From Halomonas campaniensis (GTDB lineage: Bacteria > Pseudomonadota > Gammaproteobacteria > Pseudomonadales > Halomonadaceae): a stretch of 64,000 nt of DNA. A program made the position numbers and the translations under genes. The notes below the pieces were generated by a model. That model searched no databases. It was not told the origin of the DNA and saw nothing but the letters and a program-made list of their open reading frames with translations. Positions 27,211 to 42,695 of this stretch are shown here, one piece after another. The stretch is taken from contig NZ_JACHZF010000011.1 of assembly GCF_014193375.1 (NCBI RefSeq), positions 1 to 64,000 on the forward strand, read 5' to 3'. Each line of letters begins with the position of its first letter. The first letter of the stretch is position 1.

Positions 27211-28200
27211 ATGATGACCCCACGCCCCTTCAAGCCGCTGCTGGTTACTCTCTCCTGCCTCGCCGTCTCCGGCACTGCCCTGGCGGCAGAATGGAACATG
27301 GCGACCCCCTACGGCGATGCCAGCTTCCACACCCAGAACGTCAAGCAGTTTGCCGAGGACGTGGCGGAGGCCACCGACGGCGCCCTGCGCATCAACGTGC
27401 ACAGCGGGGGATCGCTGGTCGCCCACGGCGAGATCAAGCCTTCCGTCCGGCGCGGCACCATCGAGGCGGGCGAGGTCTTCCTGTCGATCCTCTCCAACGA
27501 GGACCCGATCTTCGAGATCGACACCCTGCCGGGGGTGGCGGGCAGCTACGAGGAGGCCATGGCCCTGTGGGAAGCCACACGCCCGATGATCACCGAGCTG
27601 TTCGCCGAGGAGGGACTGGTGCCGCTCTACGCCGTGGCGTGGCCCGCCCAGGGCATCTATACCCGCGATGCCCTTGAGGATCCCGAGCAGTTCGAGGGCC
27701 TGCGGGTGCGAGCGCCCAACATCAACACCCAGCGCTTCGTGCAGAACCTCGGCGGCAACCCCACCGAGACCGAGGAGTCAGACATCCCCACCGCCTTCAG
27801 CACCGGACGGGTGGATGCCATGATCACCTCCAGCGCCACCGGCAATGCCATGACCGCCTGGGACTACATCTCCCACTACACCGACGCCAACCTGTGGCTG
27901 CCCAAGAATATCGTCTTCATCAACAAGCGCGCCTTCGACCGGCTCGACGAGGCCACCCAGGAGGCCCTGCTGGAAGCGGCCGAGCGCGCCGAGACACGCG
28001 GCTGGCAGATGAGCCGCGACAACAACGAGACCAGCCTGCAGGCCCTGCAGGACAACGGAGTCACCGTCTCCACCCCCAACGACGAGGTCGCCGCCGCCCT
28101 GCAGGCCGCCGGTGACCAGCTGTTCGAGGACTGGCAGGCCCGTGCCAGCGAGCCGGCCCTGGAGCTCCTCGAGACCTACCGCGCCGGCCTCGAGGAGTGA
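27211..28200 (+). CDS. TRAP transporter substrate-binding protein (second system)
   Basis: 329 aa with a Sec signal peptide (MMTPRPFKPLLVTLSCLAVSGTALA). DctP-fold features: MATPYGDASFHTQNVKQFAEDVAEATDGALRINVHSGGSLV, GEIKPSVRRGTIEAGEVFLSIL, YTRDALEDPEQFEGLRVRAPNINTQRFVQNLGGNPT, FSTGRVDAMITSSATG. The carboxylate-binding arginine is expected in GLRVRAP. It lacks clear similarity in sequence to the first TRAP binding protein, so the two systems take up different ligands. Confidence 0.93.
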   Translation: MMTPRPFKPLLVTLSCLAVSGTALAAEWNMATPYGDASFHTQNVKQFAEDVAEATDGALRINVHSGGSLVAHGEIKPSVRRGTIEAGEVFLSILSNEDPIFEIDTLPGVAGSYEEAMALWEATRPMITELFAEEGLVPLYAVAWPAQGIYTRDALEDPEQFEGLRVRAPNINTQRFVQNLGGNPTETEESDIPTAFSTGRVDAMITSSATGNAMTAWDYISHYTDANLWLPKNIVFINKRAFDRLDEATQEALLEAAERAETRGWQMSRDNNETSLQALQDNGVTVSTPNDEVAAALQAAGDQLFEDWQARASEPALELLETYRAGLEE

Positions 28201-28258
28201 CCCACCGGCCGGCGCGGTGCCACGCCGCCGCGCCGGCCAGCCATCGGGAATCACCGCC

Positions 28259-28822
28259 ATGACCTTCAAGTTTGCGCTGCTCTACCGCATGGGCGCCTGG
28301 GGAGCGGCGACCTGCATGGTCACGATCTGCGCCCTGGTGGCGCTGCAGGTGACCTTCCGGGTCGTCGATGCCCTGCTGCATCTGGTCGGCATGCCACGCC
28401 TCGGCCTGAGTATCACCGGCGTGTCGGAGATCGCCGCCTACCTGCTGGTCGGTGCCACCTTCCTGGGGCTTGCCTACACCTTCGTGCACCATGCCCACAT
28501 CCGCGTCACCCTGCTGATCTCGCGGCTGCCCTCCCGGATCCGGGTCTGGTTCGAGGTAGCCTGCCTGATCGTGGCACTCGCCCTGAGCCTGCTGCTGGGA
28601 CATGGGCTCATCGAGCTTGCCCGCGAGAGCCTGCAGTTCCGGGACGTCTCCTCCGGGTTTCTGTCGATCCCGCTATGGATTCCACAGACCGTGCTGGCAA
28701 CCGGCGTGGGGCTGCTCTGCCTGGCGCTGGCCGAGGCCCTGGTGATGACGCTGCGCATCGCGGCCAGGGAGCCCGAGCGCTACCGCGAACTCACCGACGG
28801 CGACGACAGCGACCTGCCATGA
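28259..28822 (+). CDS. TRAP transporter small permease (second system)
   Basis: 187 aa from the ATG at 28259, four membrane segments. DctQ motif: GVSEIAAYLLVGATFLGLAYTFVHHAHIRVTLLISRLP. Starts 58 nt after the binding-protein stop and is followed 25 nt later by the large permease gene. Confidence 0.9.
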   Translation: MTFKFALLYRMGAWGAATCMVTICALVALQVTFRVVDALLHLVGMPRLGLSITGVSEIAAYLLVGATFLGLAYTFVHHAHIRVTLLISRLPSRIRVWFEVACLIVALALSLLLGHGLIELARESLQFRDVSSGFLSIPLWIPQTVLATGVGLLCLALAEALVMTLRIAAREPERYRELTDGDDSDLP

Positions 28823-28847
28823 CACCTGCCCAACGGGAGACATCACC

Positions 28848-30152
28848 GTGCTGATCCTCAGCCTGGCCAGCATCCTCACCCTGGCGATCCTGCTCGGCAG
28901 CGGCGTCTGGATCGCCTTCGCCCTGATCGGGACCGCCTGGGTCGCCCTGGCGGTCTTCAGCACCTTATCGCCCGGCCCCATCCTCGCCTCGGACTTCTGG
29001 GGCGCGAGCTATGGCTGGGACCTGACCGCGCTGCCGATGTTCATCTGGATGGGCGAGATCCTGTTCCGCTCGGGGCTGGCCGACAACATGTTCCGCGGCC
29101 TGTCCCCCTGGCTGAACCGCCTGCCGGGACGCCTGCTGCACACCAACATCATCGGCAGCGGCATGTTCGCCGCGGTCTGCGGCTCGTCGGCGGCGACCTG
29201 TGCGACGGTCGGCAAGATGACGCTGCCGGAGCTGGAGCGGCGAGGCTACGATCCGCAGATGGCCATCGGCACCCTGGCCAGCGCCTCCACCCTGGGCCTG
29301 CTGATTCCGCCCTCGATCGTCCTGATCGTCTACGGCGTGGTCACCGAGCAGTCGATCTCCCGCCTGTTCATGGCCGGCGTCGGGCCCGGGCTGCTGATCC
29401 TTTCGCTGTTCATGGTCTACCTGATCGCCTGGGCGCTCCTCAAGGGCAAGCGCAGCGGACTGACCGGCCAGGACGAGTCGTCGCTGCCGCTGGCGCAGAA
29501 GCTGCGCCAGACCTGGTCGCTGCTGCCCATCCTGGCGCTGATCGGCGGGATCATCTTCAGCATCTACGGCGGGCTGGCCTCGCCCACCGAGGCGGCCGCG
29601 GTGGGTGTCGTGCTGTCGATGCTGATTGCCCGCTTGAACGGGCACTTCGGCAAGGCCGTCTTCCAGGAATCGCTGTTCGCGGCCATCCGCACCGCCTGCA
29701 TGATCGCCTTCATCATCGCCGGGGCGTCGTTCCTCACCTCGGCGATGGGGTTCACCCAGGTGCCCATGCAGCTCGCCCGGGCCATCGGCGAGATGGGCCT
29801 CTCGCCGACGATGCTGCTGGTGGCGCTGACCCTGCTGCTGCTGGTGATGGGCTGCTTCCTCGACGGGATCTCGTTGATCCTCCTGGTCACGGCCATCATC
29901 ATGCCGGTGATCAGCGCCGCGGGATTCGACCTGATCTGGTTCGGGATCTATCTGGTGATCGTGGTGGAGATGTCACAGATTACCCCGCCGGTGGGCTTCA
30001 ACCTGTTCGTGATCCAGGGCCTCACCGGCAAGGACATCCTGACCATCACCCGGGCCACCCTGCCCTTCTTCCTGCTGATGCTGGTGGCCATCGCCCTGAT
30101 GCACCTCTTCCCGGAGATTGCGCTCTACCTGCCGCAGGCCATGAACCGCTAA
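28848..30152 (+). CDS. TRAP transporter large permease (second system)
   Basis: 434 aa, GTG start with GGGAGA upstream. DctM landmarks: ALPMFIWMGEILFRSGLADNMFRGLSPWLNRLPGRLLHTNI, FAAVCGSSAATCATVGKMTLPEL, GLLIPPSIVLIVYGVVTEQSI, GGLASPTEAAAVGVV, EMSQITPPVGFNLFVIQGLTGKD. Its stop overlaps the convergent kinase gene stop by a few bases. No catabolic gene accompanies this transporter, so its substrate cannot be inferred. Confidence 0.93.
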   Translation: MLILSLASILTLAILLGSGVWIAFALIGTAWVALAVFSTLSPGPILASDFWGASYGWDLTALPMFIWMGEILFRSGLADNMFRGLSPWLNRLPGRLLHTNIIGSGMFAAVCGSSAATCATVGKMTLPELERRGYDPQMAIGTLASASTLGLLIPPSIVLIVYGVVTEQSISRLFMAGVGPGLLILSLFMVYLIAWALLKGKRSGLTGQDESSLPLAQKLRQTWSLLPILALIGGIIFSIYGGLASPTEAAAVGVVLSMLIARLNGHFGKAVFQESLFAAIRTACMIAFIIAGASFLTSAMGFTQVPMQLARAIGEMGLSPTMLLVALTLLLLVMGCFLDGISLILLVTAIIMPVISAAGFDLIWFGIYLVIVVEMSQITPPVGFNLFVIQGLTGKDILTITRATLPFFLLMLVAIALMHLFPEIALYLPQAMNR

Positions 30153-32005
30153 TCGGCCCGCCCCCTGGCACTCGCGTCCGCCACGGCAAGCGCCGCGCGC
30201 GGGTCCCGCGGATAGAAGCGCTCCGGCTGGCGCTCAACGTGGGGAAAGAAGCGGGTGTCCTTGTAGGGCATCTTCATGAACCCGGAGACCCCGAGCCCCT
30301 CGATCAGCCCGACCGCATCGAGGATATCCTCCAGCCGGCGTCGGAACTCCGCCTCCCGCGAGGGATCGAGCAGCCGATAGTAGGAGTGGATCTTGAGGTG
30401 CTCGGGCAGCGCCTCGAAGATGATCATGCCGGTATGGTGGATCTCGTTGAGCGCCTCCAGCGAGGTGATGATCGCCTCCGGCAGCACCAGGAACTCCTCC
30501 GGGTCGGGGCCATCCTCGAAGTAGCTGTGAAGGCGGCTGCGATCCTCCAGTTCCGGAACCGCACTGACCTCGTAGGCCAGGCGCATGCCCGGCTCGATCA
30601 TGAACGGCTGCTCCTGGCTGTCACGCTCGAGATGCAGGGTGTCGCGGGCGTTGAACAGGCAGCTCTTGAAGATGCCCTGGCGGTAGATGGCCCGGGCCAG
30701 GTGCACCATGTTGTTGACCGCGGCAATGAAGGCCGGCCGCCGCTCGGCATCGTGCAGGTTCAGCGAGGTATCGATGTAGACCCCGTCGGCCTCCCAGCGC
30801 ACCGCCAGGCCGCCCACCACCGGGTACCGGCCGAGGCGGCTGACCGAGGCCAGGAAGGCCTTCTCGGTCTCGCCCATACCCTGCATGAAGTTCTTGTAGT
30901 AGCGGTCGAGCTGCACGTCGTTGACGTCGTTGAGGGTCTCGGCGGCGCCCTCCTCGCGCAGGAAGGCCTTGCGGGAGCTGTAGACCACGGTATCGATCTC
31001 CCGCTCGGCCGGCCGCACCCACACCGGCACCAGCGCATGGGCCGGTGGCTCGGGCAGGTCGATCATCACCAGCCGGGCCAGCCGCGGCATCTCGCGGATG
31101 AAGTGGTCGCCGGCCTTCAGGCGCAGCCGCGGGTCAGGGTCCAGCATGCCGTCGAGCATGCGCGCGAACTCCACCGGCAGGCCCAGGGAGGTCGCGGGAA
31201 TCGCCCGATGGCCGAAGCGGCAGGACTGCGCCGAGGCCAGCGCATAGAGGGTGCCGGCGGCACCCTGCTCGTCGAAGCGCGGCGAGGAGAGCGCGCCATT
31301 GAGCTGCTCCTCGCCGATGAAGTAGACATCGCCCAGGCGGGCGTTGGTCTGCTGCAGGTTGTCTGACATCAGCTCCATGACGTTGGCCGCCACGAACTGC
31401 TGGTTGGCATCGAGCTGGGCGAACACCGAGGAGCCCCAGTCGATCAGCGCGATGTTCTCGGTCTCTCCGTCGAAGACCAGGTTGGAGGGCTTGATGTCGC
31501 CGTGCACGATGGGCCGCCCCGCCGGGCCGGACTCCCGGCGCAGCGCGCGCAGGATGTCGGCCAGCTGGTCGGCGATGTGCATCACCAGGCGCGGTGACAG
31601 GCGACCCTCGCGCAGCGATACCTCCTCGAGGTTGAGCCCCGGGGCCCGCTGCATGACCAGGATCGACTGGTGGCGCACCCGCTGGTAGGCGATCAGCCTG
31701 GGCACCCGCGGATGATCGACCTGCTCCAGCATGAAGGCCTCCTCCTCGAGGCGGTCCTGGAGGTGCTGGGGCAGGTTGACCCGGGTGAACTTGAAGACGT
31801 ACTGGTCACCCAGGGCGGTCAGTCCGGCGAACACGAAGCCGTAGGCGCCCTTGCCGATCAGCTCGATCTCCCGGTAGCCCAGCTGCTCCAGCTGGTCCTG
31901 GCACAGCGACACCCACGCCTTGAGCTTGCGGGCATCGTCGTGGCTGAGCAGATAGACCGACTGCTCCTCCGGAATGTAGAACTGCTGCAGGGGCGCCTGG
32001 GTCAT
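30149..32005 (-). CDS. Hanks-type serine/threonine protein kinase in the branched-chain dehydrogenase operon
   Basis: 618 aa from the ATG at 32005. The kinase domain has the glycine loop GKGAYGFVFAG (51-61), probable ATP lysine K72 in YVFKFTR, a helix-C glutamate near 88, the catalytic loop HGDIKPSN (168-175; HGD instead of HRD, D170, K172, N175) and the metal-binding D189 in LIDWGSS (DWG instead of DFG). An additional C-terminal domain of about 270 residues (from about 350) has no family I recognise. No membrane segment is seen. It starts 4 nt after the E2 stop, so it is co-expressed with the dehydrogenase complex. Confidence 0.88.
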   Translation of the reverse strand: MTQAPLQQFYIPEEQSVYLLSHDDARKLKAWVSLCQDQLEQLGYREIELIGKGAYGFVFAGLTALGDQYVFKFTRVNLPQHLQDRLEEEAFMLEQVDHPRVPRLIAYQRVRHQSILVMQRAPGLNLEEVSLREGRLSPRLVMHIADQLADILRALRRESGPAGRPIVHGDIKPSNLVFDGETENIALIDWGSSVFAQLDANQQFVAANVMELMSDNLQQTNARLGDVYFIGEEQLNGALSSPRFDEQGAAGTLYALASAQSCRFGHRAIPATSLGLPVEFARMLDGMLDPDPRLRLKAGDHFIREMPRLARLVMIDLPEPPAHALVPVWVRPAEREIDTVVYSSRKAFLREEGAAETLNDVNDVQLDRYYKNFMQGMGETEKAFLASVSRLGRYPVVGGLAVRWEADGVYIDTSLNLHDAERRPAFIAAVNNMVHLARAIYRQGIFKSCLFNARDTLHLERDSQEQPFMIEPGMRLAYEVSAVPELEDRSRLHSYFEDGPDPEEFLVLPEAIITSLEALNEIHHTGMIIFEALPEHLKIHSYYRLLDPSREAEFRRRLEDILDAVGLIEGLGVSGFMKMPYKDTRFFPHVERQPERFYPRDPRAALAVADASARGRAD

Positions 32006-32009
32006 GGTG

Positions 32010-33638
32010 TTACGCCAGATGGAGCAGCATGGTCTCCGGCGCCTCGAGGTAGCCCTTCCAGGCGTTGCAGAAGCGGGCAATGGTGCCGCCGTCGATGATC
32101 CGGTGGTCGCCGGCCCAGGTGACGGTCATGATCGCCCGCTTGACTACCCGGTCCTCGGCATCGAAGCGCGGCAGCCACTGGGTCTTGCCGATGGCCACGA
32201 TCGCCACCTCCGGGGCATTGATGATCGGTGCGGCATAGGTACCGCCCATGGCACCGATGTTGGAGATGCTGATGGTGCCGCCCTTGAGGTCTTCCTGGCT
32301 CACCTTGCCGGCACGGGCGGCGTCGGTGAGTCGCTGGACCTCGGCCGCCACGCCGAGCAGGCTCAGCCGCTCCACGCCCTTGACGTTGGGCACGAGCAGC
32401 CCGGCACGACTATCCACCGCCATGCCCACGTTGACCGAGGCGAGGTAGTGGATCTCGCTGGCCTCGTCGTTGAGCCGCGCGTTGAGGATCGGCGCCTCGC
32501 GCACCGCCAGCGCCATGGCCTTCATGAAGAAGGGCATCAGGGTAAGCCGGGTCTCCTCGGCCGCCGCCAGCGGCTTCAGGCGCTCGCGCAGCGCCAGCAG
32601 CTCGGTGACGTCGATCTCCTCGCCATACTGGAAGTGCGGAATGGTGGTGGCCGACTCGACCATGCGCTTCGCCATGACCGCCCGCACGCCACGCAGCGGC
32701 TCCACGCGGACCTCCTGCTCGGCCGGCTGGGGCGCCGGCGTCGGCGACACGGTTTCGGTCGTCGCAGCCGACCGGGCCGTCTCACCCCCGTGCTCAAGGT
32801 GACGCAGCACGTCCTCCTTGAGCACCCGCCCCTGCCTGCCGGAGCCGGCCACCTCGTCCAGCGCCAGGCCGTGCTCGCGCAGCAGCCGGCGGACCGCCGG
32901 TGCCGCGGGAATGCGGCCGTAGGGGCCACGCCCCGGCTCCCCGCCATCACTGACGGGTTGCGGGGCCGTCGTGGGCGCCGCTCGCCGGGCCTCGGCGGGT
33001 GACGCACTGGCCTCCTGCCGCGGGCGAGGCGCCTCCTCGGCGGCCTCGGCCTCGCCTTCCGGTCGATAGGCATAGAGCGGCGCATGCACCCGGGCAATCT
33101 CGCCCTGGGCCACGTGCAGCCGGCTCACCACCCCGGCCTCGGGGGCGGTGATCTCGACCAGTGCCTTGTCGGTCATGACATCGACCACCGGCTGGTCCTC
33201 CTCGATCACCTCGCCCTCGGCCACGCGCCACTCCACCACCTCGCACTCGACGATACCCTCGCCGATATCCGGGAGAATGAAGTCCTTGTCCGGCCTGCCC
33301 TCGGCGGCGCCTCCGCCGGTGGGCCTGGCGGACGGCTCGGGCGGCGCCGACGGTTGCGCCGAGGATGCGGGCGGCTCGGCTGCCGGGCTCGCGGTCTCCT
33401 CCCCCTCGGCCTCGTAGGCAAACAGCGGGGCATGCACCTTGGCGATCTCGCCCTTCTCCACGTAGAGCCGGGTCACCCGGCCCGCCTCGGGCGCGGTGAT
33501 CTCGACCAGCGCCTTGTCGGTCATCACCTCGACCACCGGCTGGTCCTCCTCGATCACGTCGCCCTCGGCCACGCGCCACTCCACCACCTCGCACTCCACG
33601 ATACCTTCACCGATATCGGGCAGCATGAAATCGCTCAT
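32010..33638 (-). CDS. bkdB: Branched-chain 2-oxoacid dehydrogenase E2 (dihydrolipoyl acyltransferase) with two lipoyl domains
   Basis: 542 aa. Two N-terminal lipoyl domains (about 2-77 and 118-193) have lipoylated lysines K42 and K158 in MTDKALVEIT. A proline/alanine linker leads to the E1/E3-binding domain (RIPAAPAVRRLLREHGLALDEVAGSGRQGRVLKEDVLRHL) and the catalytic domain ending DHRIIDGGTIARFCNAW (active-site His and Asp). It transfers the acyl group from E1 to CoA. Bacterial BkdB usually has one lipoyl domain, so two is unusual. No E3 (lpd) gene follows; a kinase gene takes its place. Confidence 0.93.
   Translation of the reverse strand: MSDFMLPDIGEGIVECEVVEWRVAEGDVIEEDQPVVEVMTDKALVEITAPEAGRVTRLYVEKGEIAKVHAPLFAYEAEGEETASPAAEPPASSAQPSAPPEPSARPTGGGAAEGRPDKDFILPDIGEGIVECEVVEWRVAEGEVIEEDQPVVDVMTDKALVEITAPEAGVVSRLHVAQGEIARVHAPLYAYRPEGEAEAAEEAPRPRQEASASPAEARRAAPTTAPQPVSDGGEPGRGPYGRIPAAPAVRRLLREHGLALDEVAGSGRQGRVLKEDVLRHLEHGGETARSAATTETVSPTPAPQPAEQEVRVEPLRGVRAVMAKRMVESATTIPHFQYGEEIDVTELLALRERLKPLAAAEETRLTLMPFFMKAMALAVREAPILNARLNDEASEIHYLASVNVGMAVDSRAGLLVPNVKGVERLSLLGVAAEVQRLTDAARAGKVSQEDLKGGTISISNIGAMGGTYAAPIINAPEVAIVAIGKTQWLPRFDAEDRVVKRAIMTVTWAGDHRIIDGGTIARFCNAWKGYLEAPETMLLHLA
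33059..33290 (-). repeat. Second lipoyl-domain copy within E2
   Basis: Encodes residues about 118-193 of E2. Its first half is almost identical to the copy at 33405-33638 in both protein and DNA (LPDIGEGIVECEVVEWRVAE, then EDQPVVxVMTDKALVEITAPEAG), while the second halves differ more. This points to internal duplication with partial sequence homogenisation. Confidence 0.8.
33405..33638 (-). repeat. First lipoyl-domain copy within E2
   Basis: Encodes residues about 1-77 of E2; partner of the copy at 33059-33290. Both keep the lipoyl-lysine motif MTDKALVEIT. Confidence 0.8.
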
Positions 33639-33687
33639 CTTGCTTACTCCTGTCTGTCCTGGCTCGCTTCCGACGCGCTGTCTGGCA

Positions 33688-34665
33688 TCAGAAGGCCACG
33701 CTGGCCTTGATCGCTTCGAAGATCTTGAGGTGGTCCGGCAGGTACTCCTTCTCCAGCGTCAGCGGGAAAGGCGTATCCAGGCCGGTCACCCGAGCGATGG
33801 GCGATTCCAGGTAGAGGAAGCAGCGTTCCTGGATGGTGGCGGCAATCTCGCCGGCGAAGCCGCCGGTCAGCGGCGCCTCGTGGGTGATCACCAGGCGGCC
33901 GGTCTTGAGCACCGATTCGGCCACGGTGTCCTCGTCCCAGGGCAGGATCGAGCGCAGGTCGACCACCTCGCAGGAGATGCCCTCCTTCTCGGCCAGCTCC
34001 ACGGCCCGCTCGATCACCTCCATCTGCGCGCCCCAGCCGAGCACGGTGATATCGGTCCCCTCGCGGATCACCTCCGCCTCGCCGATGGGCAGCTGGTAGT
34101 CCTCCTCGGGCACCTCCCCGGTAGAGGCACGGTAAAGGCGCTTGGGCTCGAAGAACAGCACCGGGTCGGGGTCGCGGATCGCCGAGAGCAGCAGGCCCTT
34201 GGCCTGGTAGGGGTTACGCGGCACCACGATCTTGAGGCCCGGGGTATGCGCGAAGTAGGCCTCCGGCGACTGGGAGTGGTAAAGCCCGCCGGCAATCCCG
34301 CCGCCATAGGGGGCCCGGATGGTCAGGCCGCCGACGTTGAACAGGTCGCCGGAGCGGAAACGGAACTTGGCCGTCTCGTTGACGATCTGGTCGAAGGCCG
34401 GAAAGATATAGTCGGCGAACTGGATCTCCGCCACCGGCACCGACCCCTGGGCTGCCAGGCCGTTGGCGAAGCCGATGATGCCCTGCTCGACCAGCGGCGT
34501 GTTGAAGCAGCGCGCCCTGCCGTACTTCTCCTGCAGGTGGCTGGTGGCCCGGAAGACGCCACCGAAGACACCCACGTCCTCCCCGAAGCAGAGCACCTTG
34601 TCGTCCTCCGCCATGGCGATGTCCAGGGCGTTGTTGATCGCCTGCAGCATATTCATGGTCGGCAT
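33688..34665 (-). CDS. bkdA2: 2-oxoisovalerate dehydrogenase E1 beta subunit
   Basis: 325 aa from the ATG at 34665. E1beta landmarks: [144 protein letters not shown]. The RYRSG-like F-R-F-R-S-G and [11 protein letters not shown] segments favour the branched-chain over the pyruvate enzyme. It binds thiamine diphosphate at the interface with E1alpha. The ATG follows the E1alpha stop by 1 nt. Confidence 0.94.
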
Positions 34666-34666
34666 G

Positions 34667-35881
34667 TCAGGCCCCTCCCTCGTTGGCGGCATCGTCCTGA
34701 GCGCTCACGTCCGGGTCCAGCGAACGCGCCCCCTTCGGATAGGCATCCGGGTGCTTGCGGATATGGGTCTTCAGCCGGTCCAGCTGACGCTGCAGGGCCG
34801 GGGTCACATCGGCATAGACATCCGTCACCAGGCTGTCGAGCGGGGGTGGGGGCCGCTTCTCGGCACGCTTCATGGTCTCGAGCACCTCGCGGCGCAACGA
34901 CTCCTGTAGCGATTTCTCCTCGTCGTCGTTCCACCAGCCCTGCGCCACCAGCCAGTGCTGCATGCGCAGGATGGGGTCCTTCTCGCGCCAGGCCTCCTCC
35001 TCCTTCTTCGAGCGATAGCCGGAGGGGTCGTCAGAGGAGGAGTGGGCGGCGAGGCGATAGGTCATCGCCTCGATCAGCACCGGCTGGTTCTGCTCCACGG
35101 CGATCCGGCGCGCCTCGCGGGTGGCCGACAGCACCGCCAGGATGTCGTTGCCATCCACCCGGATCACGTGCATCCGGTAGCCGAAGGCCCGCGGCGCCAC
35201 CCCGTCGGCGGCAAACTGCTCGATGGAGGGGGTGGAGATCGCATAGCCGTTGTTGCGGCAGAAGAAGATCACCGGCACCTCGTGCACCGCCGCCATGTTG
35301 AGCGCGGCGTGGAAGTCGCCCTCGGAGGCGGCGCCCTCGCCGAAGAAACACAGGGTGCAGTGGCCGTCACCGGCCATCTTCTGGCCGTAGGCGTAGCCGG
35401 CCGCCTGGGGAATCTGGGTGGCCAGCGGGGAGGAGATGGTCATGTAGTGGAGCTTGCGCGACCCGTAGTGGATCGGCATCTGCCGCCCCTTGCCATAGTC
35501 GAGCTCGTTGCCGAACAGCTGGTTCATGAACTCGTCGTAGCTGAACCCGCGGTAGACCAGCGCGCCCTGCTCGCGGTACTGGGACATGATCATGTCGGCA
35601 TCGTCGAGCGCGGCCGCCGCCCCGATCACCGCGGCCTCTTCCCCCGTACACTGCATGTAGAAGGAGAGCCGGCCTTGCCGCTGGGCGGCCATCATCCGCT
35701 CGTCGAGCACCCGGGTGGCGATCATCGTGCGGTAGATCTTCAGCGCCTGATCGCGCTCGAGCGTCGGCGCCTCGGCCCCCTCGAAGAGGGTGCCGTCCTG
35801 ACGAAGCAGGCGGAAGGTAGGTATCGAGAACTCGTCGCCGGCCAGGAAGTCCGGCGCATGGATATCTTGTGTCGTTGTCAT
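34667..35881 (-). CDS. bkdA1: 2-oxoisovalerate dehydrogenase E1 alpha subunit
   Basis: 404 aa from the ATG at 35881. It decarboxylates branched 2-oxoacids from valine, leucine and isoleucine using thiamine diphosphate. Visible: [46 protein letters not shown], the cofactor motif [31 protein letters not shown], and the loop [15 protein letters not shown] (residues 276-290). In the mammalian enzyme the corresponding loop serine (HHSTSDDSS) is the regulatory phosphorylation site; here S281 aligns with it. First gene of the operon E1alpha - E1beta - E2 - kinase. Confidence 0.95.
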
Positions 35882-36056: not shown

Positions 36057-36821
36057 TCAACGGCCGTGACGGCCGAGCAGCCGCTGGCAGCGCTCGAAGG
36101 CGCTGTCGACGGTGAGCGCCAGCAGGCCGATCAGCGCGGCGCCCTGGAGGACATAGGCGGTATTGCCGTTGACGATCCCCGAGATGATCGGCGCGCCGAG
36201 GTTGCTGGCCCCCACCGTGGCCCCCAGGGCGGCGGTGGCGATGTTGATCGTCACCGAGGTGCGGATCCCCGCCAGGATCACTGGCGCCGCCAGGGGGAGC
36301 TCGACCTGCAGCAGTTGCGGGACGCCGCCCATGCCCATGCCGCGCGCCGCCTCCAGCACCGACGGGTCGATGCCCTGCAGGCCGGCCAGGGTGTTGCGGA
36401 CGATGGGCAGCAGGCCATAGAGCAGCAGTGCCACGATGATCGGCCAGGTGCCGAACCCCAGCACCGGCACCGCCAGCGCCAGCACGGCCACCGGCGGGAA
36501 GGTCTGCCCCATGGAAGCGGCCTGGGCCAACAGCGGCAGGAAGTCGCGACCCGCCGGCCGGGTGACCAGCACCGCGGCCCCCACGCCAATGACCACCGCC
36601 AGCAGCGCGGCCACGCCCACCACCAGCAGGTGACGCCCCAGCAGGGTCAGGAACTCGGCATGGGGGTAGATCACCTGGCGGCTGCCCGGCTCGACCGCCC
36701 GGAACAGCGGTTCCAGTGCCGCCATGCCGAAGGCCAGCGCCAGCAGCAGGCCACACCAGATAAGCGGTGCTCGCCACAGGGTCCATGCCGCGGGGCAGCG
36801 GGCAAACGTCGACTCACTCAT
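36057..36821 (-). CDS. yehW: Osmoprotectant ABC importer permease (YehW-like)
   Basis: 254 aa from the ATG at 36821, about six membrane segments. BPD_transp motif: VRNTLAGLQGIDPSVLEAARGMGMGGVPQLLQVELPLAAPVILAGIRTSVTINIATAALGATVGASNLG, typical of OpuC/ProW-like betaine/choline transporters. Length matches E. coli YehW (243 aa). The start overlaps the ATPase gene end by 8 nt. Last gene of yehZ-Y-X-W. Confidence 0.9.
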   Translation of the reverse strand: MSESTFARCPAAWTLWRAPLIWCGLLLALAFGMAALEPLFRAVEPGSRQVIYPHAEFLTLLGRHLLVVGVAALLAVVIGVGAAVLVTRPAGRDFLPLLAQAASMGQTFPPVAVLALAVPVLGFGTWPIIVALLLYGLLPIVRNTLAGLQGIDPSVLEAARGMGMGGVPQLLQVELPLAAPVILAGIRTSVTINIATAALGATVGASNLGAPIISGIVNGNTAYVLQGAALIGLLALTVDSAFERCQRLLGRHGR

Positions 36822-37758
36822 CGCGGCGGGCTCCCACCAGGCGGCGCAGCGAGAGCTCGCCCACCGGCATGTCGTCCTCATCCACCACCGTCAGGCGATC
36901 GGCATGCTCGCGGAACATCACCGCCAGCGCCTGGTGCAGGGTCGCGTCCCGAGGCACCCGAGCACGGGCGATCAGCCGGGGAGACAGCGGCAGCATGCGC
37001 TCGCTGACGCGGGTCAGGGCGGCCTCCTTGAGGCCGCGATCGTCCCCGCCCAGCATCGACGCCACGAAGTCGTCGGCCGGGTCGCGCAGGAGCTCCAGGG
37101 GCGAGCCCTGCTGGACGATGCGCCCGGCCTTCATCACCACCAGCCGGTCGGCCAGGCCGAGGGCCTCATCCATATCGTGGGTGACGAACACGATGGTCTT
37201 GTGCAGCCGTGACTGCAGGTCACGCAGCTCGGCCTGGAGCGACTCGCGGGTGATCGGGTCCAGCGCGCCGAACGGCTCGTCCATCAGCAGGATGTCCGGG
37301 TCGGCGGCCAGCGCCCGGGCGACCCCGACCCGCTGGGCCTGGCCGCCGGAGAGCTGGTGCGGGTACTTGTCGGCGAAGCTATCCACCGGCAGGCCCAGCA
37401 GTGCCATGAGCTCCTCGACCCGCTCCCGGATGCGGGGCGCCGGCCACCTGAGCAGCCGCGGCACCAGGCCGATGTTGCGCGCCACCGTCCAGTGGGGAAA
37501 CAGTCCGGTGCTCTGGATCACGTAGCCGATGCGGCGCCGCAGCGTCTGTTCGTCGAATTCCCGGACCTGGCGCCCCTCCAGGTGGATCTCGCCCTCGCTG
37601 TGCTCGATCAAGCGGTTGATCATGCGCAGGGTGGTGGACTTGCCGCAGCCGGAGGTCCCCACCAGGGCGCAGAGCTCGCCTTTCTCCACCCGCAGCGAGA
37701 GTCGATCCACGGCGGTCTCGCTGCCGAACCGCTTGGTGACCTCGATGAGTTCGATCAT
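36814..37758 (-). CDS. yehX: Osmoprotectant ABC importer ATPase (YehX-like)
   Basis: 314 aa. Walker A GTSGCGKSTTLRMINRLI, Q-loop YVIQSTGLFPHWTVARNIGLVP, signature LSGGQAQRVGVARALAADPDILLMDEPFGALDP, switch FVTHDMDEALGLADRLVVM. The C-terminal part (about 255-310) contains one CBS-like unit (RVPRDATLHQALAVMFREHADRLTVVDEDDMPVGELSLRRLV), as in OpuA/ProV-type ATPases where it senses ionic strength. The ATG overlaps the YehY gene stop (ATGA). Confidence 0.93.
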   Translation of the reverse strand: MIELIEVTKRFGSETAVDRLSLRVEKGELCALVGTSGCGKSTTLRMINRLIEHSEGEIHLEGRQVREFDEQTLRRRIGYVIQSTGLFPHWTVARNIGLVPRLLRWPAPRIRERVEELMALLGLPVDSFADKYPHQLSGGQAQRVGVARALAADPDILLMDEPFGALDPITRESLQAELRDLQSRLHKTIVFVTHDMDEALGLADRLVVMKAGRIVQQGSPLELLRDPADDFVASMLGGDDRGLKEAALTRVSERMLPLSPRLIARARVPRDATLHQALAVMFREHADRLTVVDEDDMPVGELSLRRLVGARRDE

Positions 37759-38945
37759 GACGTGGCCTCCTGACCCGCTGATGGCAACTGCCGGGGGTCC
37801 AGCCGCCGGGCCAGGGCGCCAAGCAGGCCATCGGCGACCAGCGCCATGGCCAGGATCGGCAAGGCCCCCAGCAGCACCAGGTCCATGGCGGCCTGGCCGA
37901 GCCCCTGGAAGATGAAGGTGCCGAGCCCCCCGGCACCGATCAGTGCCGCCACCGCGGTCAGGCCGATCGCCTGGACCGTGGTGATGCGCACGCCCTCGAT
38001 CATTACCGGCAGCGCCAGCGGCAGGCGCACCTGCAGGAACACCTGGGTGCGGCTCATGCCCATGCCCCGCGCCGACTCCAGCACCTGCGGCGACACCCCC
38101 TCCAGCGCCACGAAGGTGTTGCGGACCATGGGCAGCAGGCTGTAGCCGAGCAGGGCCAGGAAAGCCGGTGCCCAGCCGATCCCCCTCACCCCCATGGCAT
38201 TCAGCCAGGCCACGTTGGCGGCGAGCCAGGCGAGCGGGGCCAGCAGCAGGCCGAACAGCGCCAGGCTGGGAATGGTCTGGAGGAAGTTGAGCACTCCGAA
38301 ACCGACCCGTTCGAGGCCGGCATGGCGGCGCATGGCCAGGGCCAGGCCCGCGCCCAGCACCAGGCTGGCGCCGACGGCGCCGGCCACCAGCCGCAGGTGC
38401 TGGATCACCGCCGCGGTGAACTGGTCACTGCGCCCCCGGTACTCCTGTACCAGCGCCAGCGACTCGAGACCGTGGGACGAGGCCAGCCACCAGACCAGCG
38501 CCACCGGCGCCAGCAGCAGCCAGACGGCAAGCCGCGGCAAGGCCAGGCGCCCGCGCAGCTCGATCAGCACCAGGCCGAGCAGGAACAGCAGCAGCCACAC
38601 CGCGGCACCGACCCCCAGACGCGCCTGCGGCGTGGTCGGGTCGATCATCAGGGCGGCCGCCCCCGCCAGCCAGGCCGGCAGGGCCGCCAGCAGCAGCACG
38701 GCGAGCCCCAGCGCGACGCGGTACCGGGTGGGCGTGGGTCGCCAGGCCAGGGCCACCATGGCTAGCCACGGCAGGCAGCCCGCCAGGGCGCCGGCCCAGC
38801 CGACGATCTCGTAGGCATGGAACGGGGTACCGGGGACGATGCGGTTGGGGGCGACGCTCACCGACGGCAGCGCCAGCCAGGCCACGGCGGCGGCCAGCAT
38901 CAGCGCGGTCAGCACGCGGTTGGGGAGTGGCGCTTCCCTGCGCAC
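37755..38945 (-). CDS. yehY: Osmoprotectant ABC importer permease (YehY-like)
   Basis: 396 aa using the GTG at 38945, 7 nt after the yehZ stop. The open frame extends further upstream only inside yehZ. N-terminal hydrophobic extension with about five helices, then the transporter core (FGVLNFLQTIPSLALFGLLL; MVRNTFVALEGVSPQVLESARGMGMSRTQVFLQVRLPLALPVMIEGVRITTVQAIGLTAVAALIGAGGLG). E. coli YehY is 385 aa with the same N-terminal extension, which supports the assignment. Confidence 0.88.
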   Translation of the reverse strand: MRREAPLPNRVLTALMLAAAVAWLALPSVSVAPNRIVPGTPFHAYEIVGWAGALAGCLPWLAMVALAWRPTPTRYRVALGLAVLLLAALPAWLAGAAALMIDPTTPQARLGVGAAVWLLLFLLGLVLIELRGRLALPRLAVWLLLAPVALVWWLASSHGLESLALVQEYRGRSDQFTAAVIQHLRLVAGAVGASLVLGAGLALAMRRHAGLERVGFGVLNFLQTIPSLALFGLLLAPLAWLAANVAWLNAMGVRGIGWAPAFLALLGYSLLPMVRNTFVALEGVSPQVLESARGMGMSRTQVFLQVRLPLALPVMIEGVRITTVQAIGLTAVAALIGAGGLGTFIFQGLGQAAMDLVLLGALPILAMALVADGLLGALARRLDPRQLPSAGQEATS

Positions 38946-38952
38946 GGCGGGC

Positions 38953-39864
38953 TCAGTCGTCCAGGCCGTCGAGGAAGTCCGCCGCGACCTGGCGAGGGTC
39001 AAGCCCGTTGACGGCCACGTCGCCATTGAGACGCTGCAGGGTCTCCAGATCCAGGGCCTGGAACAGCGGCGTCAGCAGCGACTCGATCTCGGGATAGGCC
39101 TCGAGCACCTCGGCGCGCACCACCGGCGCCGGCTGGTAGACCGGCTGCACCCCCAGGGTGTCCTCCAGGACGACCAGGTCCAGCGCATTGAGGCCGCCGT
39201 CGGTACCGTAGGTCATGGCGGCGTTGACGCCGCTGGTCTGCTGGGCCGCGGCGCGCATCGTGGAGGCGGTGTTGCCGCCGGAGAGCACCAGCAGCTGGTC
39301 ATCGCCGAGCGTGAAGCCGTAGGCCTCCTGGAACGCCGGCAGCGCCTGCTCGGACTCCACGAACTCGGCGCTGGCCGCGAATTTGAACTCGCCGCCTGCC
39401 TCCAGGTAGCTCGCCAGGTCCTCGAGGCTCGCCAGGCCGTGCTCGCGGGCCAGGTCACCGCGCACGCTCATCGCCCAGGTATTGTTGGCCGAGGCCGGCG
39501 TCAGCCATGCCAGGTCGTTCTCGGCGTCCCTCTCCCGAACCGTCTCGAAGGCCGCCTCGGCATCGTGCCAGACGTCGCTGTCGGTCATGTCGAAGAAGAA
39601 GGCGCCGTTGCCGGTGTACTCCGGATAGAGATCGATCTCGCCGGTCAGCAGGGCCTCGCGCACGATGCTGGTGCCGCCCAGCTGCAGCCGGTCCTGCACC
39701 TCGATGCCGCCGGCCTCGAGCCGCTGGAGGATCAGCTGGCCGAGCACCGAGCCCTCGGTGTCGATCTTCGAGGAGACCACCACCGGGTCATCGGCCTGGA
39801 CGGAGGAGAGGCCCAGCACGGAGACGGCAGCGACCAGGGTCAGGCGAGCAAAGGGGATACGCAT
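38953..39864 (-). CDS. yehZ: Osmoprotectant-binding periplasmic protein (OsmF/YehZ-like)
   Basis: 303 aa with a Sec signal peptide (MRIPFARLTLVAAVSVLGLSSVQA). OpuAC-family features: VVVSSKIDTEGSVLGQLILQRLEAGGIEVQDRLQLGGTSIVREALLTGEIDLYPEYTGNGAFFF, and GVNAAMTYGTDGGLNALDLVVLEDTLGVQPVYQPAPVVR. E. coli YehZ is 305 aa, and the gene order yehZ-Y-X-W is preserved. The E. coli system is a low-affinity betaine importer. A promoter with an extended, RpoS-compatible -10 lies upstream. Confidence 0.92.
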   Translation of the reverse strand: MRIPFARLTLVAAVSVLGLSSVQADDPVVVSSKIDTEGSVLGQLILQRLEAGGIEVQDRLQLGGTSIVREALLTGEIDLYPEYTGNGAFFFDMTDSDVWHDAEAAFETVRERDAENDLAWLTPASANNTWAMSVRGDLAREHGLASLEDLASYLEAGGEFKFAASAEFVESEQALPAFQEAYGFTLGDDQLLVLSGGNTASTMRAAAQQTSGVNAAMTYGTDGGLNALDLVVLEDTLGVQPVYQPAPVVRAEVLEAYPEIESLLTPLFQALDLETLQRLNGDVAVNGLDPRQVAADFLDGLDD

Positions 39865-39962: not shown

Positions 39963-40940
39963 ATGCCTCACGCCCCGCCACCCCTGCTCGACCGCTGCCA
40001 CCATCCGCTGGTCCGCGACCTGGCGTGGCTGCTGCTGGTGCCCGACCTGCTCACCATGCCCTGGCCGGGACGCCCCAGCCGCGAGGCGCTGGGGCTTGAC
40101 GACGACGCCCGCCTGGCCGCCTGGCTGGATGACCTGGAAGCCACCCCCGAGGCGCTGGAGGCGTGCGTGGGCGACACCCTGACGGGCCGCATGGGGCTCT
40201 ACCACGAGCGGCTCTGGCAGTTCCTGCTGGCGGCCGCCCCCGGCACCGAGCTGCTGGCCCACAACCTGCGCATCCTCCGCGGCAAGCAGACCCTCGGCGA
40301 GCTCGACCTGCTCTACCGGCGGGTCGGCGCGCCCGAGCCCATCCACCTGGAGGTGGCAATCAAGTTCTACCTCGGCCTGACCGAAGGGCCCGGCGACGAT
40401 ACCTCCCAGGCGCGCTGGATCGGCCCCGGCGGGGCGGACAGCCTGGCCGGCAAGCGCGAGCACCTCCACCAGCGCCAGCTGCGCCTGACCGAGACCCCCG
40501 AGGCCCGCGAGGTCATCCAGGTGCTGCTGGCCCCGCAGGCCATGGGGATTGATCGTCCCCTGGCGATCCGGCGGCAGCTGGCCATGCCGGGAGTGCTCTT
40601 CACGCCCTGGCACCGGCCGCTGCCCCCGCCCCGGGAAGCGAACCCGGCACACCTGCGAGGCACCTGGCTGTTCTGGGGGGCATGGCGGGACTACCGCGAC
40701 GGCCTGCCGCCAGGCACCCGGGGGGCCTGGCTGCACAAGCCCCACTGGCTCGCCCTGCCTCGCCGGGAGCACCTGCTGCCACTGGGCGAGCTCGAGTCCC
40801 AGCTGGCCCAGCACTTCCAGGCCACCGCGTCTCCCATCCAGCTGGCAGTGTGGCAGGAGGCGATGGGCTGGCAGCGGCTGTTCCTGGTCGCCGACGACTG
40901 GCCGCGGCAGATCCCGCTGCCGCCCGTTCCGAATCAATGA
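39963..40940 (+). CDS. DUF1853 family protein
   Basis: 325 aa, soluble. It matches DUF1853 in the combination LLVPDLLT, GRMGLYHERLWQFLLA, LRILRGKQTLGELDLLYRR, HLEVAIKFYLG, HLRGTWLFWGAWRDY and WLHKPHWLALP. The G-E-L-D plus L-E-V-A-I-K arrangement resembles a PD-(D/E)xK nuclease core (E-x-K), so a nuclease-like role is possible but unproven. Divergent from yehZ with a 98-bp shared promoter region. Confidence 0.82.
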   Translation: MPHAPPPLLDRCHHPLVRDLAWLLLVPDLLTMPWPGRPSREALGLDDDARLAAWLDDLEATPEALEACVGDTLTGRMGLYHERLWQFLLAAAPGTELLAHNLRILRGKQTLGELDLLYRRVGAPEPIHLEVAIKFYLGLTEGPGDDTSQARWIGPGGADSLAGKREHLHQRQLRLTETPEAREVIQVLLAPQAMGIDRPLAIRRQLAMPGVLFTPWHRPLPPPREANPAHLRGTWLFWGAWRDYRDGLPPGTRGAWLHKPHWLALPRREHLLPLGELESQLAQHFQATASPIQLAVWQEAMGWQRLFLVADDWPRQIPLPPVPNQ

Positions 40941-41046: not shown

Positions 41047-41352
41047 TTACTCAGTGGAGTCCAGGGCCTGCGCCAGCAGGGAACGCTTGCGCGGCAGCAG
41101 ACTCACCTCCAGCCCCAGGGGCCGGAAGACGCGGTTCTTCATCTCCAGGGTGACATTGCCCTTGTCACCCTCCAGATCCGACAGGGTACGCCGGCTGATG
41201 CCGACCAGCGCCGCGTAGCGGGTCTGGGAGAGCCCCAGCACATCACGACGCAGGGCCCTCAGGAGCTGGCCATCGGTAAGCTCACCCGCATAGAAACGCC
41301 TCAGCAGCGTCACCAGCGCCCCTTCTCGGTCATCGACATTGCGAGGTTTCAT
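41047..41352 (-). CDS. hipB: HipB-like antitoxin (XRE helix-turn-helix)
   Basis: 101 aa. A helix-turn-helix in the middle, LSQTRYAALVGISRRTLSDLEGDKGNVTLEMKNRVFRPLG, resembles HipB-type Cro/CI antitoxins. It neutralises HipA and represses the operon through upstream repeats. The ATG overlaps the hipA stop (ATGA), so it is the second gene of the pair; hipB usually comes first. Confidence 0.88.
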   Translation of the reverse strand: MKPRNVDDREGALVTLLRRFYAGELTDGQLLRALRRDVLGLSQTRYAALVGISRRTLSDLEGDKGNVTLEMKNRVFRPLGLEVSLLPRKRSLLAQALDSTE

Positions 41353-42695
41353 AGCAGCCCCCAGCGCTTGAGTCGGGTGCCAAGCGTGCGCAAGCCTACG
41401 GACGGCATATCCAGAATGCGAGTGGGAACGCCTCGCCCGGCCAGGCGTTCATCCAGCCCATTGAGGTCGACGGCCAGCCGCCGCAGCGCCTCCATCAACT
41501 GATCGGGGTCCACGAGGTCCGACAGGGATTCCGCAATGGCGTACCAGTCGTATTCGCCCCCAGCCTCGAGCGGCGGGCCCCACTGGGTGGTTCGTGTCAC
41601 TCCCTCGGGATCGGCTCGCATCGGGGCGAAATCGTAGACCGGTGAGAGCCAGATTCCCTCGGGGCGCTTCAGCAGCGCCGTATTGCGACCGTGGTTGTCG
41701 GAGTTGCCAAACGCGATGTTGAGCAGATCGCGCCGCACCCATTCGATGACGAAAGCCGACGCTTCAAAGGGTTCGCCGAGCTCACGGACACGATACTGCG
41801 CCTGCAGCAGGCCCACTAACCGGCGAAGCGTCTCACCGTGGCGAAGGAAGGTGCCGGGCGCCGCCCCCATCAGTGAATAGACGGACTCCAGGCCGTAGCG
41901 AATCCAGACGCCGTCGTGATGGTGCATATCGAAGCGAGGCAGCCAAAGCGAGGGATAGCGCTCTCCCTCCATCAGTCTCATGGCCCCTGTCTCGATGGTA
42001 TCGATTCCCAGAAACGCCAGTTCCTGGTAGTAGTGATATTCGGCACGAAGAATATCGCAGTCATCGTCGGTACGCCGGCCGCGGGGAAACTTGACCAGCA
42101 TCGGCAGATCCGGGCGGTGAACCTCTTCCTGCCAGGTATCGATCCAGACCTGCTCATCTTCGGCGAGCCTGAGCAGCAACTTGGGGGCCTCGCCACCGGC
42201 CCCGGTCGCCCCCCCGCTGGCTGCTCCCATCTGCTGGGCATACTCCAGAAAGTCGACATCTCGCTCCACCACGTTTCTTACTGGAAAGCGTCGCTCTCCA
42301 AGGCTATCCCTGAGGCTGTTGTCGGGCACCGCCTCCTTGATGCGCAGGTTACCGACCGGCGCGATAGTCCCGCGGGCCAGAAGCTCCGCGTCCTGGCGCC
42401 CGGTCGAAAGGTGATGGATACCGAGAAAGTCCACCCAGAAGCGGCGGCTGGCTCCCGCCGGCATGATGTCCTCCAGAAAACCGAACCAGCGCGGGGACTC
42501 GTGTGTCAGCATCAGCTCCACAGGCAGCACCAGGCTGGCTGCATGCCGGTCGTCGTGGAACATCCACTCGACGGCATAGTCGGTTGCATAACGCAGGCGA
42601 GACGGGCCATGCACGCCTCGCTCCGGGTCTGGCAAGGAGATCTCGGCGGCATCTTGCCAGACCCGGCCGAAGTGGATTTGTAGCGTCAGCCTCAT
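41349..42695 (-). CDS. hipA: HipA-like serine/threonine kinase toxin
   Basis: 448 aa. HipA layout: N-terminal subdomain 1 (LPVELMLTHESPRWFGFLEDIMP), a flexible phospho-loop region (GGATGAGGEAPKLLLRL) where HipA autophosphorylates, a kinase core with the catalytic loop NIAFGNSDNHGRNTALL (D, N) and the metal-binding SPVYDFAPM. E. coli HipA phosphorylates glutamyl-tRNA synthetase; the target here is unknown. First gene of a reversed HipA-HipB pair, with the operator at 42713-42796. Adjacent to cysS and glnS, which may be coincidence. Confidence 0.88.
   Translation of the reverse strand: MRLTLQIHFGRVWQDAAEISLPDPERGVHGPSRLRYATDYAVEWMFHDDRHAASLVLPVELMLTHESPRWFGFLEDIMPAGASRRFWVDFLGIHHLSTGRQDAELLARGTIAPVGNLRIKEAVPDNSLRDSLGERRFPVRNVVERDVDFLEYAQQMGAASGGATGAGGEAPKLLLRLAEDEQVWIDTWQEEVHRPDLPMLVKFPRGRRTDDDCDILRAEYHYYQELAFLGIDTIETGAMRLMEGERYPSLWLPRFDMHHHDGVWIRYGLESVYSLMGAAPGTFLRHGETLRRLVGLLQAQYRVRELGEPFEASAFVIEWVRRDLLNIAFGNSDNHGRNTALLKRPEGIWLSPVYDFAPMRADPEGVTRTTQWGPPLEAGGEYDWYAIAESLSDLVDPDQLMEALRRLAVDLNGLDERLAGRGVPTRILDMPSVGLRTLGTRLKRWGLL

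Follow-up and report, generated by a model that had tools for sequence, protein, structure and literature searches.

A Hanks-type kinase that probably controls the mitochondrial-type branched-chain oxoacid dehydrogenase of many marine and salt-loving bacteria

That a dedicated kinase controls a 2-oxoacid dehydrogenase is, to our knowledge, known mainly from mitochondria, and a locus of Halomonas campaniensis, in which a protein kinase gene stands at the end of a branched-chain oxoacid dehydrogenase (BCKDH) operon, raises the question of whether bacteria regulate this complex in a similar way with a kinase of their own. The locus lies in a window of 64,000 nucleotides, by which we mean the whole stretch of DNA that was analyzed, and an earlier note on this DNA had proposed that the kinase phosphorylates E1alpha or E2. 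Our analyses suggest that the kinase probably controls BCKDH, as an unrelated kinase does in mitochondria, and that this applies to many marine and salt-loving bacteria.

The operon and the type of its dehydrogenase

Four genes stand in series on the minus strand, and the rechecked coordinates confirm the order and the gaps of 1, 49, and 4 nt given by the earlier note: E1alpha (34667-35881; 404 residues, PF00676 with 341 bits), E1beta (33688-34665; 325 residues, PF02779 and PF02780), the E2 acyltransferase (32010-33638; 542 residues, with two lipoyl domains, an E3-binding domain, and a catalytic domain), and the Hanks-type protein kinase (30149-32005; 618 residues, PF00069). The operon ends with the kinase gene, and the next gene, encoding the TRAP-transporter protein DctM, is convergent, with the ends of both genes overlapping by 4 nt. 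The TRAP transporter genes DctP and DctM (27211-30152, plus strand) converge on the kinase gene, and at one related locus (L048) a similar transporter gene comes after the kinase as well, in opposite orientation to it. Glycine-betaine-type ABC transporter genes (OpuAC, ABC_tran, and two BPD_transp_1; 36060-39864, minus strand) immediately precede the BCKDH operon and share its strand. Farther on, the window contains a gene for a DUF1853 protein with no assigned function (39963-40937, plus strand) and a HipBA-type toxin–antitoxin pair (41050-42695, minus strand), in which the gene for a HipA-like kinase (PF07804) overlaps a small helix-turn-helix gene.

An E3 gene is indeed absent from the operon, as had been claimed, and the sole lipoamide dehydrogenase above the curated cut-off in the genome is encoded on another contig (C7:79819-81225). 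This E3 gene is located directly downstream of an E1/E2 pair that gives only 28% matches to the E1 and E2 of the operon, and sdhB, recognized by eye, lies upstream of these C7 genes. The bkd operon of Pseudomonas resembles the window operon in having the E1alpha, E1beta, and E2 genes in series, and it has its own E3 gene. However, the E1alpha of Pseudomonas-type genomes is only 35-42% identical to that of the window, and these genomes have no such kinase, with the exception of G603.

In comparisons with solved structures, the window E1alpha reached 417.7 bits with human BCKDH E1alpha, versus 242 bits with the E1alpha of 1um9, 215.9 bits with the best Pseudomonas-type chain, and 153.5 bits with human PDH, and its matches to the PDH models of NCBIfam stayed below the cut-off. 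With the domains of E1alpha, E1beta, and E2 all present, and with an E1alpha whose closest match among solved structures is that of BCKDH, the complex can be assigned to the mitochondrial (BCKDHA) type. An HMG-CoA lyase gene adjoins the BCKDH operon at one related locus (L190), and an amino-acid dehydrogenase gene (glutamate/leucine-type, under the cut-off of every model) adjoins it at another (L199), which fits branched-chain amino acid breakdown. For the substrate specificity of the complex, these neighbors are no more than hints.

Linkage and co-occurrence of kinase and dehydrogenase

The proposal would have lost its ground if the kinase gene were found mostly away from dehydrogenase genes in relatives, and linkage turned out to prevail. 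In the named genomes, the best 80 of at least 479 relatives at E up to 1e-3 come from Halomonas, Billgrantia, Vreelandella, Marinobacter, and a few others, and represent nearest relatives, not a random sample. E2 is encoded upstream of the kinase on the same strand in all 80, at a distance of up to 20 nt in 44 loci, 21-300 nt in 33 loci, and 860, 2095, and 7641 nt in one locus each, and all three E genes are within the locus in 76 of these best 80; of the remaining four loci, three are truncated at the end of a contig. The 7.6 kb insert between E2 and kinase (L056) contains SAM-cycle, methylenetetrahydrofolate-reductase-like, and ATPase-like genes, as judged by eye. In the order sample, 49 genomes have both genes, with E1alpha and kinase 2.2-2.9 kb apart in 41 genomes and, in seven, either separated by 49-246 kb or located on other contigs; in G704, E1alpha is on another contig, but the end of E2 adjoins the kinase. 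More distant kinase loci from the phylum sample, 15 in number, are linked to BCKDH in nine cases, and in the other six there are no BCKDH genes within the fetched stretch around the kinase, on which alone these loci were judged. One of these six (L260) has only 3.5 kb upstream before the contig end, and four belong to a single family (f234), which we tentatively take for Shewanella by eye from its gene content.

Kinase and mitochondrial-type E1alpha also occur together on the level of genomes. Among the 390 genomes of the order sample, where E1alpha was counted as mitochondrial-type at 60% identity or more, 53 contain E1alpha and 50 contain the kinase: four genomes have E1alpha only (G564, G775, G795, and G807), one has the kinase without a found E1alpha (G625), and 336 have neither. 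Either gene occurs in 22 genera, of which 21 include a genome with both. The corresponding Fisher value of 2e-56 is only descriptive, as the genomes are related. The kinase is absent in 15 of the 16 genomes of this sample with a Pseudomonas-type E1alpha, and the exception, G603, has both E1alpha types. The class sample (369 genomes) contains five genomes with both genes, none with a mitochondrial-type E1alpha only, and one with a kinase fragment only (G456, at a contig end), and all 11 genomes with a Pseudomonas-type E1alpha are without the kinase. In the phylum sample (359 genomes), the kinase was detected in 25 genomes, all inside the class; it should be noted that the three samples overlap. 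A set of 97 related genomes had the kinase with more than 180 bits in 63, comprising 60 of the 61 genomes of the genus (our own included) and three of other families, and 14 further genomes of this set showed only matches below 45 bits, to other kinases. Within the own family, neither kinase nor E1alpha was found in G366, G599, G660, and G680. No tblastn match was detected in plasmids at E up to 1e-20, and matches in PHROGs and PADLOC were to the kinase part alone.

Family f6 is split in the kinase tree and in the E1alpha tree alike: its linked members join f37, and its unlinked members stand apart. The distances of kinase and E1alpha correlate across 33 genomes with a coefficient of 0.87, a value not reached in any of 2000 permutations, although common descent alone would raise it too. 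In the E1alpha tree, which was calculated with 45 of 137 rows, three of the four genomes that have E1alpha only nest among kinase bearers, and therefore the kinase can be lost, while G795 has an unresolved position at the base. The fetched stretches of the four genomes contained no kinase remnant. At a locus of G795 (L198:208-951), which is without this kinase, a different Pkinase protein (77 bits) is encoded, with some 3 kb between it and the BCKDH operon.

A chance adjacency is disfavored by the linkage and by the co-occurrence in unlinked genomes. Taken together, the linkage, the co-occurrence that includes the seven unlinked genomes, the similar trees, and the invariant active site described below make us rather confident that the kinase is functionally tied to the mitochondrial-type BCKDH. 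This tie would not by itself make the complex the substrate: the kinase could belong to branched-chain amino acid catabolism and act on another protein, such as a regulator or an acyl-CoA enzyme. In G625, the genome without a found E1alpha (L202:3663-6766, where the match to the kinase starts only at query residue 35), the kinase is followed by an acyl-CoA dehydrogenase-like gene, and such a gene was also seen by eye beside the G456 fragment; moreover, the kinase can exist unlinked from BCKDH. However, no other neighbor recurs in the unlinked loci that we inspected by eye, and the E2 linkage is common to distant groups, so that we regard another substrate as the strongest alternative and yet as rather unlikely.

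An intact kinase with a conserved C-terminal domain

The kinase domain comprises residues 44 to about 310 (31076-31876, minus strand), with the PF00069 match spanning residues 44-203 and the end of the domain estimated from the structure model. The Pkinase profile PF00069 matched with 66.3 bits (cut-off 31.7 bits, E 3.6e-18), and a weaker APH match reached 35 bits; no NCBIfam model came up to its cut-off. The glycine loop, the subdomain II lysine K72, the helix C glutamate E89, the catalytic Asp and Asn in the HGDIKPSN motif (residues 168-175), and the Asp of the DFG position, here D189-W-G, were all found, as is expected for a Hanks-type kinase. K72, E89, H168-G-D170, N175, and D189-W-G are kept in all 164 distinct full-length relatives (sequences that span residues 45-590, which excludes shorter and split rows such as L047), and the glycine loop, K72, E89, HGDIKPSN, DWG, and R295 show little or no variation in 32 aligned relatives that were picked from 138 at 87% identity. 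Identity to the window kinase is 0.99 in the catalytic loop, 0.90 from DWG to the APE-like site, and 0.76 in the N-lobe. All 164 sequences have HGD instead of HRD, and the kinase is therefore of the non-RD type; the Hanks superfamily does not require RD. The AlphaFold model (pLDDT 74, pTM 0.78; residues 192-200 and 202-244 below 50) retrieved solved protein kinases by Foldseek with a best E of 7.1e-10, residues 192-244 of the model being unreliable. Judging from the invariant residues of its active site, the kinase looks active, that is, catalytically intact. At locus L047:7174-8981 (genome G032), the kinase gene is split into two reading frames, and the adjoining BCKDH operon looks intact.

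The kinase was said to be of a type unrelated to the mitochondrial one, and this was borne out, as PF10436 (BCDHK_Adom3) had no match in it at E up to 1, and this domain did not reach its cut-off anywhere in the genome. The search for a BCKDK-type kinase in the genome gave a single weak PF10436 match of 18.2 bits (cut-off 24 bits). A second Pkinase is encoded on contig C26. As for a phosphatase gene elsewhere, which had been named as something to look for, none of the PP2C type (PF13672, PF00481) was found at E up to 1, but the SpoIIE type (PF07228) is represented by two matches above the cut-off (contigs C17 and C7).

About 300 residues past the kinase domain have no Pfam match in the window protein, and they include a conserved C-terminal domain of no recognized family (residues 336 to about 605; 30191-31000, minus strand). 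Modeled alone, with 43 sequences thinned from 185 at 85% identity as input, this domain forms two beta-beta-alpha-beta units (pLDDT 83). No Pfam family matched in more than two of the 43 members, the best being DUF4417 in one member (E 0.0007), and a comparison with PDB sequences gave nothing at E up to 10. Foldseek found no match below 0.001 with the domain alone, whereas the model of the whole kinase retrieves kinases, and the best VIA-align Z among 1000 chains was 3.8. This value does not establish a new fold, and a known fold may have escaped the searches.

With 0.78 identity to the window protein in residues 336-605, the C-terminal domain is about as conserved as the N-lobe. This conservation, together with the APH match and the HGD in place of the usual HRD, would also suit a protein that mainly helps the complex to assemble or to dock, or a kinase that acts on a small molecule. 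We consider this improbable, as the catalytic residues are invariant, the region from DWG to the APE-like site is highly conserved, and PF00069 exceeds APH in score. A kinase that phosphorylates a subunit of BCKDH remains the reading to which we lean, with modest confidence.

A possible target and comparison with known systems

In mammals, BCKDK inactivates BCKDH at Ser292 of E1alpha, as reported in PMC8872256. The earlier note had pointed to a serine-rich loop in E1alpha as the equivalent of the phosphorylated mitochondrial loop. This loop is present (H280-S291; 35009-35044, minus strand), and S281 aligns with human residue 292, which differs among the printed chains of 1x7w, 1x7y, and 1x7z. 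As evidence, however, the loop fails: in an alignment of 137 E1alpha rows (125 of them distinct), the serine is found in 136, including 127 of 127 mitochondrial-type rows, four of which are from kinase-less genomes, and 9 of 10 Pseudomonas-type rows. S281 is thus equally present without the kinase and is compatible with phosphorylation without being evidence for it. At position S291, a serine is found in 98 of 115 distinct mitochondrial-type sequences, in 1 of 10 Pseudomonas-type sequences, and in 1 of 4 mitochondrial-type rows without the kinase, and kinase-bearing Vreelandella have Ala or Leu. Given these small numbers of related rows, the pattern may be a faint hint at best. As the likeliest site, we tentatively name S281 or S291 in this thiamine-diphosphate loop, a candidate that is possible rather than probable, and E2 or E1beta, which we regard as unlikely, would come next.

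That the kinase is a passenger gene held in the operon by descent, with no tie to BCKDH, is suggested by the fact that the linked loci are mostly from closely related genomes and that four genomes manage without the kinase, but this is very improbable and already disfavored, as seven genomes retain both genes unlinked, the linkage outlasts inserts of 0.9-7.6 kb in three of the best 80 of at least 479 named loci, and the four own-family genomes named above lack a match to either gene.

We therefore return to the kinase as a regulator of the complex. Our best reading, which we favor by a narrow margin, is that of a dedicated, catalytically intact, non-RD Hanks-type kinase that serves one complex, the mitochondrial-type BCKDH. 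The kinase would be made together with the BCKDH complex, its C-terminal domain would recognize the complex or sense a branched-chain metabolite, and phosphorylation of a subunit would set the flux through branched-chain oxoacid oxidation. By analogy with mitochondrial BCKDK, this phosphorylation may be inhibitory. Several results count against this reading: the kinases without a found E1alpha in G625 and G456, the four genomes with E1alpha only, the six phylum-sample loci that show no BCKDH genes, the equal conservation of S281 where the kinase is absent, and the lack of a PP2C-type match in the genome. Like BCKDK, the kinase appears tied to a BCKDH whose E1alpha is of this type, with S281 as the counterpart of the target residue, but BCKDK belongs to the PDK/BCKDK family with its GHKL fold, and the window kinase has another fold and lacks PF10436.

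A parallel in kind is known from Corynebacterium, where PknG, a bacterial Ser/Thr kinase, controls 2-oxoglutarate dehydrogenase via OdhI, according to PMC9769921. PknG acts through this inhibitor and on another complex, whereas the window kinase is encoded in the operon of its complex and has a different C-terminal domain: PknG is described as having a TPR scaffold (PMC8546545), and the window kinase had no TPR match in Pfam at E up to 1. A classification from 2010 contains a Gammaproteobacteria-specific kinase cluster 5 with Shewanella, Marinobacter, Pseudoalteromonas, and Alteromonas, and its main text uses neither the word "dehydrogenase" nor the word "operon" (PMC2877116). Judging from these genera, the window kinase probably belongs to this cluster, to which that text gives no function. 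Among the matches listed in a search of the open-access literature, none tied such a kinase to BCKDH.

More specifically, it is conceivable, though just short of what we would call likely, that in Gammaproteobacteria whose BCKDH is of the mitochondrial type, a dedicated BCKDH kinase of their own arose from the Hanks fold, and that its C-terminal domain represents an undescribed family and serves to dock on the complex or to sense branched-chain metabolites. Such a kinase would be convergent with BCKDK, and it would act directly on a subunit, in contrast to the PknG–OdhI system. The earlier note had already spoken of convergent regulation with mitochondria, and for us, too, it stays an inference. 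If this is true, the mitochondrial-type BCKDH would cleanly exemplify the convergent control of one enzyme, with a kinase in bacteria that differs in fold from that of mitochondria, and an unexplained kinase family of marine bacteria would obtain a role and a directly testable substrate.
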